NCBI RefSeq assembly: GCF_001592755.1
Contig: NZ_LUKF01000016.1
Span: 372,001-436,000 of the forward strand
From: Bdellovibrio bacteriovorus
GTDB taxonomy: Bacteria; Bdellovibrionota; Bdellovibrionia; Bdellovibrionales; Bdellovibrionaceae
Direction: 5' to 3'
DNA: 64,000 nucleotides
Notes under the pieces: model-generated
The model's database searches: none
Seen by the model: the letters and a program-made list of their open reading frames with translations, nothing else
What the model was told of the DNA's origin: nothing
Position numbers and translations under genes: made by a program
In this document: positions 6,851 through 16,077 of the stretch, piece after piece
Numbering within the stretch: the first letter of the stretch is position 1
How the letters are laid out: the number at the start of each line of letters is the position of its first letter

Positions 6851-7021
6851 TCCCTCATATTTTAAATGTCAGTATTTTGTTTTGGCGCAGTACGCATAGG
6901 ATTATGTACTTGCTTCGCTGCCTAATTTCATATTTAAACTTCATACGTTCCGTATATGCTGTGAATAGGGCGCAGCGTTTCTACAAGACACCAAAAAATG
7001 TCTGTCTATGGAGGGGTTTAT

Positions 7022-7882
7022 ATGACAGCAAGTTTACTGTCGGTTCTATTTGTTCTTCTTTCTGGCTCTGTTAATGCAGCCACCATTTCTCAACAAATTC
7101 CATACTACGGTGAAGACTTTTATAATGATCTTTCGTCGGGTGCTCGAGACGAAGAATTGGTGGGGCGTTTGCACACCGTGCTTAGCAGCCAACACCGTGC
7201 GGTTCCAGGTCGCCTGGATGAAATCACGGATAACTGCAACGGCTCTAACGGTTGTTACCAACACATCTCGCTGGGTTATGACCGTGCCCGCATCTTCCTT
7301 CTAGGCGTTTATTACCTGGTCGATGAAGGAAACGGCAACTACGGTCTTCCTGATGTTTACTGCGGTAATATCAGACACAGCCACGAATTCCGTGGAACAC
7401 CTCCTGGTCCTCGCGTCATCCCCGACAGCACGACTCTGAACACAGAGCACACATGGCCTCAAAGCCGCTTCACTGGCAAATTCAATAAAGGCATGCAAAA
7501 ATCAGATCTTCACCACTTGTATCCCGCCGACTCTGAAATGAACTCTGTTCGCGGCAACAATGAATTCGGTGAAGTTTCCAGAGATTCTAAAATCCTTAAA
7601 TGCAAAGAGTCCCGCACAGGCAAAGGCACTGGCGGAAGTGCTGAAATTTTCGAACCACCAATGGCTCACAAAGGAAATGTCGCTCGCGCTCTTTTCTATT
7701 TCTCGGTTCGCTACAGCATTCAAATCAGCTCAAACCAAGAAAAAGTTCTTCGCAAATGGCATCTTGAAGATCCTGTGGATGACGAGGAAATGCACAGAAA
7801 TAACGAGATCCAAAAAGCGCAAGGCAATCGCAACCCATTCATCGACTTCCCTGAATTGGTTGACTACATTCACAACTTCTAA
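7022..7882 (+). CDS. secreted endonuclease I (EndA/NucM/Bsn family)
   Basis: 286 residues with a cleavable signal peptide (MTASLLSVLFVLLSGSVNAA). The mature protein has the endonuclease I hallmarks: PYYGEDFYNDL, NTEHTWPQS, SDLHHLYPADSEMNSVRGN, the beta-beta-alpha-metal nuclease core in which histidine activates water and asparagine and other residues hold a divalent metal. It degrades DNA in the periplasm or outside the cell; in a predator it could help digest prey DNA (inference). Several cysteines suggest disulfides. I chose 7022 because GGAGGGG lies just upstream; an upstream extension to 6998 lacks a ribosome site. A rho-independent terminator follows at 7908. Confidence 0.93.
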   Translation: MTASLLSVLFVLLSGSVNAATISQQIPYYGEDFYNDLSSGARDEELVGRLHTVLSSQHRAVPGRLDEITDNCNGSNGCYQHISLGYDRARIFLLGVYYLVDEGNGNYGLPDVYCGNIRHSHEFRGTPPGPRVIPDSTTLNTEHTWPQSRFTGKFNKGMQKSDLHHLYPADSEMNSVRGNNEFGEVSRDSKILKCKESRTGKGTGGSAEIFEPPMAHKGNVARALFYFSVRYSIQISSNQEKVLRKWHLEDPVDDEEMHRNNEIQKAQGNRNPFIDFPELVDYIHNF

Positions 7883-15037: not shown

Positions 15038-15040
15038 TCT

Positions 15041-15228
15041 TTCTTCTTTCTGGCGAGGATTTGCCTTAGAAAGCTTTAAAGTAGATTGTCGCTTCGTTCG
15101 GGCACGCCATCCGGGCTCAGTTGCCGCCGCACTTCGTGCGGTTCGCGCCATCGTGGCGCCGGCAAAGGCCCTCACTACGGACACTCTACTTTAAAGCTTT
15201 CTAAGGCAAATTTTGCTAGATAGAAGAA
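15041..15228. repeat. structured repeat element, copy A (long inverted repeat with three-way-junction core)
   Basis: Outer arms 15059-15085 and 15185-15211 are a perfect 27-base inverted repeat, extended outward with a few mismatches to 15041 and 15228. Between them is a GC-rich core. At 15121-15165 the core folds into a perfect three-way junction: stem TTGCCG/CGGCAA enclosing a CCGCAC/GTGCGG hairpin with a TTC loop and a GCGCCA/TGGCGC hairpin. The core, read on the minus strand, matches the core of copy B (15668-15831) over about 95 bases at roughly 80 percent by eye, while the outer arms of the two copies are unrelated. It lies directly behind hrpB. It has no long T-run, so a simple terminator does not explain it. 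Confidence 0.85.
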
Positions 15229-15667
15229 CGGCTATTCAGCTTCGCTGTGAGTTTTGGGTCGGCGTTCCGCCGACGTTGGGGATTGGTGATTGTATCGATG
15301 TCGACTTCCCATTTTTAACGATAGATTCAACGAGATCTTTTGGAATTTTAGTTTTACCTTTTGCTCTGGGCACTCTTGGAGAAAACCAAATTTGTGATCA
15401 GCGATTGCAAGTTTCCATTCGCGAAAAGAAAGCTAATGCAGACAAAAGGTACAAATCTACTGCCACCGTGGCAGTAACTTTCGACCGGTTCTGCTCACTG
15501 ATTTTCAAATATCAAAGTCTTCCAACCCAAAAAACCGACAGAAACCACATCTGCATTAAGCACAGCCCACAAAAATTTCTGGCGATTTAAAAATAGAAAA
15601 ACCGAAAGCAAAAAGAACCAACGAACCATTCGAGCTGTAACAAAAGAAAGATTTTGAATCCAGCACA
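15229..15667. other. non-coding or decayed segment between repeat copies A and B
   Basis: No convincing gene on either strand. Visible structure: hairpin GTCGGCG-TTC-CGCCGAC at 15258-15274; hairpin CAGC-TTC-GCTG at 15237-15247; and a 9-base perfect palindrome with one central base at 15458-15476 (TACTGCCAC then GTGGCAGTA), operator-like. A minus-strand reading from about 15435 to 15230 gives some 62 residues without a start codon (begins FREWKLAIADHKFGFLQECP after a stop), which may be a gene remnant. A plus-strand open frame of 125 codons from 15213 has a TTG start and no ribosome site. The segment is richer in A+T than the elements bounding it. Confidence 0.5.
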
Positions 15668-15831
15668 GATTTGGGAGTGGGGAAAGGCCCCCTCTTGAAG
15701 CACGTCCGAAGGCTCGGCCTTCGCCGGCGCAGGATACGCGAACCGCACGAAGTGCGGCGGCGATTGAGCCAGGATGGCGTGCCGACCGAAGCGACGGGCT
15801 TCAAGAGGGGGCCTTTCCCCACTCCCAAATC
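15668..15831. repeat. structured repeat element, copy B (33-base perfect inverted repeat with shared core)
   Basis: Arms 15668-15700 and 15799-15831 form a perfect 33-base inverted repeat (starts GATTTGGGAGTGG). The enclosed core is related to that of copy A in the opposite orientation. Its junction stem is TCGCCG/CGGCGA at 15721-15726 and 15758-15763, against TTGCCG/CGGCAA in copy A: the second base pair changed on both sides, keeping the pairing. The CCGCAC/GTGCGG hairpin (15743-15757) is conserved; the other hairpin is weaker here. The following block (GAGCC-GGATGGCGTGCC then GAAGCGAC) is also shared. Possibly a small non-autonomous mobile element or a structured RNA. Confidence 0.85.
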
Positions 15832-15849
15832 CGTCGCTAGAAGCAAAAA

Positions 15850-16077
15850 CTAGTGAACCCGCTTACAAGCACAAACAGCCTCGTCGCCGTCCGCCTCTGC
15901 AAGCTCTTCTTCACGGTTTTCAAGATACGCTAGAAACGCGGCGGAGCGAAAAGCCAGATCGTATAAAGTGTCCATATCGATCACGAACTTTTCCTCGCCG
16001 AGTTTTAGCGCAGCATAAGAATCGGAAATTTCTTCGAAGGCGATTTGTTCTGCCTCGATGAATTTAGAATTTTTCAT
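15850..16077 (-). CDS. 75-residue hypothetical protein coupled to rpsD
   Basis: Starts MKNSKFIEAEQIAFEEISDS and overlaps the rpsD stop by one base (TAATG), so it is translationally coupled to ribosomal protein S4. It is acidic overall with a hydrophobic middle (LYDLAFRSAAFLAYLENREEELAEA) predicted helical, and ends with ACKRVH after two cysteines (CAC). No signal peptide. I do not recognise the family. The tight coupling supports a real cytoplasmic protein; a link to ribosome function is only an inference from position. Confidence 0.6.
   Translation of the reverse strand: MKNSKFIEAEQIAFEEISDSYAALKLGEEKFVIDMDTLYDLAFRSAAFLAYLENREEELAEADGDEAVCACKRVH

Follow-up and report, generated by a model that had tools for sequence, protein, structure and literature searches.

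A multi-copy repeat family of Bdellovibrio with a conserved branched core, locus-specific arms and DNA-like covariation

What kind of element folds twice, in opposite orientations, in the interval between hrpB and rpsD of Bdellovibrio bacteriovorus, and is its folded form RNA or DNA? We focused on a 64,000-nucleotide window of this genome, in which a first-pass annotation had described two inverted copies of a junction-forming core with unrelated, perfect inverted flanks. A structured RNA, a non-autonomous mobile element that copies its flank in inverted form and a nuclease or RAYT substrate had been considered as explanations.

The two elements were delimited by inverted-repeat and folding analysis. 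Element A, with its outer ends, arms and core, occupies 15041-15228 (+) and starts 4 nt past the stop codon of the hrpB-like gene. Its locus-specific 5' arm (15059-15090, +; 32 nt) is 97% complementary to its 3' arm (15180-15211, +), and its conserved core lies at 15088-15181 (+; model R1, 99.4 bits). Element B occupies 15660-15840 (-), with a 42-nt 5' arm in element orientation (15793-15834, -) that is 95% complementary to the 3' arm (15665-15706, -), and a conserved core at 15705-15795 (-; model R1, 90.1 bits). The arms are near-perfect overall rather than perfect, and the perfect stretches are about as long as the annotation had claimed. The shared core in opposite orientation was recovered as 47-nt blocks (15101-15147 and 15737-15783) that are 94% complementary, and the proposed covarying pair, TTGCCG/CGGCAA in A against TCGCCG/CGGCGA in B, is present. 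Folding energies were -104 kcal/mol for A (z -11.8) and -129.6 kcal/mol for B (z -13.6), and in neither case was any of 200 shuffled sequences as stable. An informal look at the short open reading frames across A and B revealed no apparent conserved frame; their interpretation as genes is not supported, and the structure covaries among copies. Both elements have orthologs in G018, the nearest relative of the genome under study (G000) among the genomes compared, and the arms of the A ortholog are identical.

The core is branched, as had been claimed, but it holds two nested three-way junctions instead of one. The outer stem P1 (the arms plus GGC/GCC) encloses the hairpin H0 and the stem P3, and P3 in turn encloses the hairpins H1 and H2. 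In A, H0 (GCC-ATCCG-GGC) lies at 15106-15116 (+) and P3 (TTGCCG/CGGCAA) at 15121-15165 (+), enclosing H1 (15127-15141), a variable stem that reads GCCGCACTTCGTGCGG in this copy, and H2 (15145-15159; GCGCC-ATCGT-GGCGC). H0 can be written GCC-ATCC(G)-GGC. Family-wide, conservation covers the NTCC/NTCG loops of H0 and H2 and to the joining segments GGCACG, GCTC, GGTTCG and AAGGCC, though the conserved core positions partly reflect copies related by descent. The outer ends are weakly conserved (..CGRSGGATTTG / CAAATC..). The whole element is non-coding and about 150-190 bp long, and each locus has its own pair of arms of about 33 bp.

Another structured repeat, about 70 bp in length (GGGCTCCTGCCC..CCCCTTCGGGGCT..CGCGCAAAAATAGCATCCTGCTATTTTTG), was observed inside a core hairpin of several copies (L009:1402-1559 in G000, L367 and L371 in G011, and L147 and L151 in G017, both of the latter judged from core length only). 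It also occurs alone downstream of hrpB in G014 (L212 near 3040), and its hairpins likewise bear CATCC/CTCC-type loops. Some Gammaproteobacteria seem to have hairpin clusters with CATCC loops, which might be relatives of the Bdellovibrio family.

A BLAST search with A detected some twenty more copies in G000 itself and matches in 21 of 60 relatives, every one in the genus Bdellovibrio, and the named public matches to A were exclusively from Bdellovibrio. With a covariance model built from 49 copies, we detected 26 copies in G000 and 338 across 23 of the 24 Bdellovibrio genomes; G003 had zero copies and G002 a single weak match. A search of the kind that the annotation had proposed, by BLAST and then a covariance model, yielded far more copies than A and B, and these form a structured multi-copy family with compensatory stem changes and new, locus-specific flanks, as had been suggested. 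Nearly all copies found are full-length. Weaker matches were detected in five genomes outside the genus but within the wider class, with a hairpin core of the form ACGCC.TCC..GGC and with arms that are long and perfect but differ by locus; each of these distant matches is modest alone, and their credibility rests on the shared anatomy. Since they share the core-plus-arms plan, the repeat family is probably old. In the class-level relative G141, convergent element pairs (L288, L292) stand in tandem on one contig, about 700-800 bp apart, and have almost the same arms; in Bdellovibrio the pattern is a dispersed one. No copies were found in phage, plasmid and viral collections, no relevant family was found in Rfam at gathering or relaxed thresholds, and no description of the repeat family was found in the open-access literature. 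A study of eight attack-phase small RNAs of Bdellovibrio (Karunker et al. 2013, PMC3627812) does not contain the word 'repeat' in its text. The family was apparently not previously described.

The core is paired in 98.5% of the cells of the 49-copy alignment. Double changes were found in 17 of the 22 pairs (126 double-change cells against 1 one-sided cell), and 0 of 500 shuffles reached the paired percentage or the covariation score. Among 141 distinct copies, 3,041 of 3,078 core cells were Watson-Crick pairs, and the other 37 comprised 23 C.T, 7 A.C, 5 G.T, 1 A.G and 1 T.T. G-U/G-T pairs accordingly account for about 0.2% of the core cells (5 of 3,078), against about 7%, by a hand tally of the printed pair table, in a control RNAalifold fold of the RNase P RNAs of 23 Bdellovibrio genomes. 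RNA under structural selection evolves via G-U intermediates. The covariation of the core is therefore DNA-like, because an RNA would pass through G-U pairs and this family hardly ever does; the suggestion that a structured RNA is the selected form was not supported by this comparison.

The arms of 140 copies have a median length of 33 and contain 4,400 Watson-Crick pairs, 309 mismatches and 23 gaps, and their sequence differs at nearly every locus. When one copy was taken per locus group (95 groups), the mismatches were strongly asymmetric, with 95 C.T against 6 G.A (p 1e-21), 72 A.C against 30 G.T (p 4e-5), and 9 C.C against 0 G.G; a sign test per copy gave 61:14 leaning the same way. This excess of C.T, A.C and C.C on the top strand means that the G-containing mismatches sit on the bottom strand, where they read G.A, G.T and G.G, which are the most stable mismatches in DNA. 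Under DNA folding parameters the bottom strand was the more stable one for 83 of 93 copies (p 1e-13); under RNA parameters it was so for 64 copies against 26. The asymmetry may be due to selection for a hairpin of bottom-strand single-stranded DNA (ssDNA), or it may have been left by mutation or repair with a strand bias. Together with the scarcity of G-U pairs, it suggests that a single DNA strand, rather than an RNA, is the target of selection or of templated correction.

Seventeen orthologous copies were paired between G000 and G018, and in the 16 compared the arm identity averaged 0.83 (range 0.50-1.00), with changes nearly always compensated on the opposite arm. Element B, for example, differs from its G018 ortholog by an A/G difference and by 1 nt in length, each matched on the other arm. 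The G018 copy L125:1505-, ortholog of L013, has an identical 5' arm and core and a rewritten, unmatched 3' arm, and is possibly a decaying copy or an intermediate. At several loci the element is kept across more distant species of the genus; five genomes, for example, have one after an EF-G-like gene, and its arms differ. In G012, four related copies, of which three lie within copies of a single insertion sequence (IS), share their arms save for partly compensated changes. As both orthologs and IS-carried copies keep their arm lineage, arms are passed on together with their copy and drift over time, instead of being copied afresh from the flank. The idea of a flank copied in inverted form was thus not supported, also at the readable empty sites, where no convincing donor was found. 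Hypermutation of the arms, considered for arms up to 50% different beside 95-99% identical coding flanks, was dropped; the mean arm identity of 0.83, set beside diverged intergenic sequence, is compatible with roughly neutral arm change, and we make no claim of hypermutation.

The elements are oriented relative to gene ends. According to a simple ORF caller, the upstream neighbour is co-oriented with the element in 102 of 138 cases, with its stop codon a median of 31 nt from the arm, and the downstream neighbour is convergent in 94 of 138. Just 11 of 138 copies have a T-tract behind the 3' arm, a simple scan placed a separate terminator beside about one quarter of the copies, and several copies, among them those downstream of groEL and fusA-like genes, are located past an intrinsic terminator. 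Given the rarity of the T-tract, these elements are not standard terminators, and with arms that vary by locus and no conserved terminal inverted repeats they are not ordinary insertion sequences, in agreement with the annotation on both counts. All opposed pairs in the genus are convergent, with 126-631 nt between core matches. A reading of A and B as a composite transposon with shared cargo was rejected, as the spacers of 14 opposed pairs showed no homology except between orthologs.

Presence or absence at orthologous sites differs between species. Many genomes of the genus retain synteny across the hrpB-rpsD interval, and the A-spacer-B segment (15038-15853, unstranded; about 816 bp), found in G000 and G018, is jointly missing from this site in G008, despite the rejection of the composite-transposon reading; G014 has one copy after hrpB with other arms, and most other genomes have none. 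Within the spacer, a short inverted repeat (CTGCCACCGTGGCAG) was observed at 15450-15490 of the window, and G018 has about 100 bp extra at this point, bounded by similar sequences. G018 is without two elements found in G000, where the gaps measure about 241 and 219 bp, and G008 is without the groEL-linked copy and one further copy, with an apparent remnant at another site. The adjacent terminator sequence is sometimes also missing, so insertion and deletion are not always separable.

On balance, we favour the reading that these are REP-like, non-autonomous interspersed repeats, whose substrate is the bottom DNA strand in folded form; the core would be sequence-specific, and the arms would need only to pair. 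The relevant unit would be bottom-strand ssDNA, reading GGCC...GGCGTGCC and folded as a branched hairpin, and its core sequence may be recognised by a putative trans-acting ssDNA-handling enzyme, such as a recombinase or transposase. The arms would merely need pairing and could drift freely, with compensatory selection, hairpin-templated (quasipalindrome) correction or both restoring their complementarity. New copies may arise by rare insertion near gene ends or terminators, followed by vertical inheritance. Several observations run against this reading. The gain and loss sites examined showed neither a clean target-site duplication nor a recent single insertion whose boundaries were exact, no autonomous partner was found, and the strand asymmetry could stem from strand-biased mutation or mismatch repair. 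Moreover, the loci that keep the element across well-diverged species of the genus, together with the near-universal full length, suggest a host function over pure mobility. A bolder formulation, in which the family is the DNA counterpart of a structured RNA, with a bottom-strand ssDNA fold, a recognition core, compensated drifting stems, a class-wide distribution and a candidate ssDNA-specific enzyme, is put forward tentatively.

The lack of an autonomous partner was apparent from the candidate mobilisers. A Y1_Tnp match is present in 21 of the 24 genomes, and REPs, the usual partners of RAYT/Y1 transposases, are also short palindromes with head-to-head pairs (PMC3733652), which would favour mobilisation by a resident RAYT. 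However, G007, G012 and G016 have copies without a Y1 match, copy number did not correlate with RAYT number (Spearman rho 0.25, p 0.23), and REP stems are conserved where those of the Bdellovibrio repeats vary. At the RAYT-like Y1 transposase gene of G000, which lies between two flagellin genes (L059, G000:C14:89288-89545), the flanks are its own inverted palindromes (GGTGCCTGCTTC-type / AAGGTGCCTGCTTC-type), distinct from the branched family and without the core. The earlier proposal of a RAYT substrate therefore lost ground, and a REP-type repeat moved by such an enzyme is improbable; a mobile element, or a substrate of a nuclease or ssDNA-binding protein, may still apply in the broader sense. 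Even less credit goes to a retro-mobile element, in which cDNA of the sense transcript is inserted elsewhere: such cDNA would equal the bottom strand that the mismatch asymmetry appears to favour, but no reverse transcriptase domain was found in G000 or in 20 of the 24 genomes. The IS1-like element of G012 (L139, L140, L142; a 290-aa zinc-ribbon transposase, terminal repeats AAACTGATCC) bears the core beside its transposase gene and has multiplied it. It was rejected as the autonomous partner, because the core is carried as a passenger close to one end, within the terminal repeats; this IS is a carrier, not the source. In other genera of the class, no transposase was seen among the genes that separate the elements.

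Of the explanations that dispense with a mobilising enzyme, maintenance without selection deserves the most weight, although we consider it doubtful. Fold-back template switching during replication would keep palindromes perfect, with neutral arms and only the core constrained or recent. Arms that drift between G000 and G018 yet stay complementary, even through a compensated indel, and the near absence of G-T intermediates fit it, and the asymmetry could mirror the strand where hairpins form. Alone, it leaves unexplained both the invariant unpaired core bases over hundreds of copies and species and the orientation to gene ends; it is compatible with the favoured REP-like reading as its maintenance step. 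A structured RNA in mRNA 3' ends, whose sense-transcript hairpin protects the ends or binds a protein, seems unlikely. It would account for the sense orientation, often 12-35 nt past the stop codon, the strong covariation and the conserved unpaired bases and loops, but the near absence of G-U pairs compared with RNase P RNA, the residual mismatches favouring the antisense strand, which is also the more stable, the copies past intrinsic terminators and the lack of an Rfam match all speak against it. An intrinsic terminator or insulator between convergent genes is a still weaker candidate: position at gene 3' ends, the convergent neighbours and the very stable stems suit it, whereas the scarce T-tracts, the separate terminators and the retention of the hrpB-rpsD order in species without the element do not.

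The favoured REP-like reading also sets the family beside known systems. Like REP/BIME/REPIN sequences of the GTAG and CGTC superfamilies, the repeats are short, non-coding, palindromic and mostly extragenic, occur in tens of copies, often in opposed pairs, and resemble what is thought to be non-autonomous mobile DNA (PMC3733652, PMC3116915). REP stems are 5-13 bp long, conserved within a family and marked by a GTAG/CGTC tag (PMC3733652). The Bdellovibrio stem, in contrast, is about 33 bp and locus-specific, the conserved part is the branched loop region, and there is no RAYT link; extragenic location at gene ends and opposed pairs were found, RAYT adjacency and a conserved, tagged short stem were not. 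MITEs and foldback elements are likewise non-coding and dispersed, with inverted terminal arms and hairpin potential. In MITEs the terminal repeats are conserved and the interiors variable, and the Bdellovibrio family reverses this with variable ends and a conserved core; no clean target duplication was seen, nor any clean recent insertion that might show one. Because defining features were absent, we did not file the family under REPs or MITEs. Integron attC sites conserve structure over sequence, and their folded substrate is the bottom ssDNA strand, a likeness in principle. By inspection, however, the end consensus of the Bdellovibrio repeats lacks the GTTRRRY/RYYYAAC boxes, no cassette arrays were seen, and the central region is conserved in sequence. 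The structured RNAs of Rfam share covarying helices, conserved loops and a multi-junction fold, but none matched, and the G-U depletion argues against RNA.

Covariation is usually read as evidence for functional RNA, and this family covaries strongly with ssDNA-like pairing chemistry, making it a natural test case for separating DNA- from RNA-structure selection in genome scans. Its layout reverses the usual one of small mobile repeats, with constant ends and a variable middle, and bears on substrate recognition by transposases and structure-specific nucleases. For a well-used model genus of predators, it is also an additional, apparently undescribed family of repeats. Elsewhere in the window, a purine riboswitch aptamer was detected at 6930-7028 (+; 51.4 bits).
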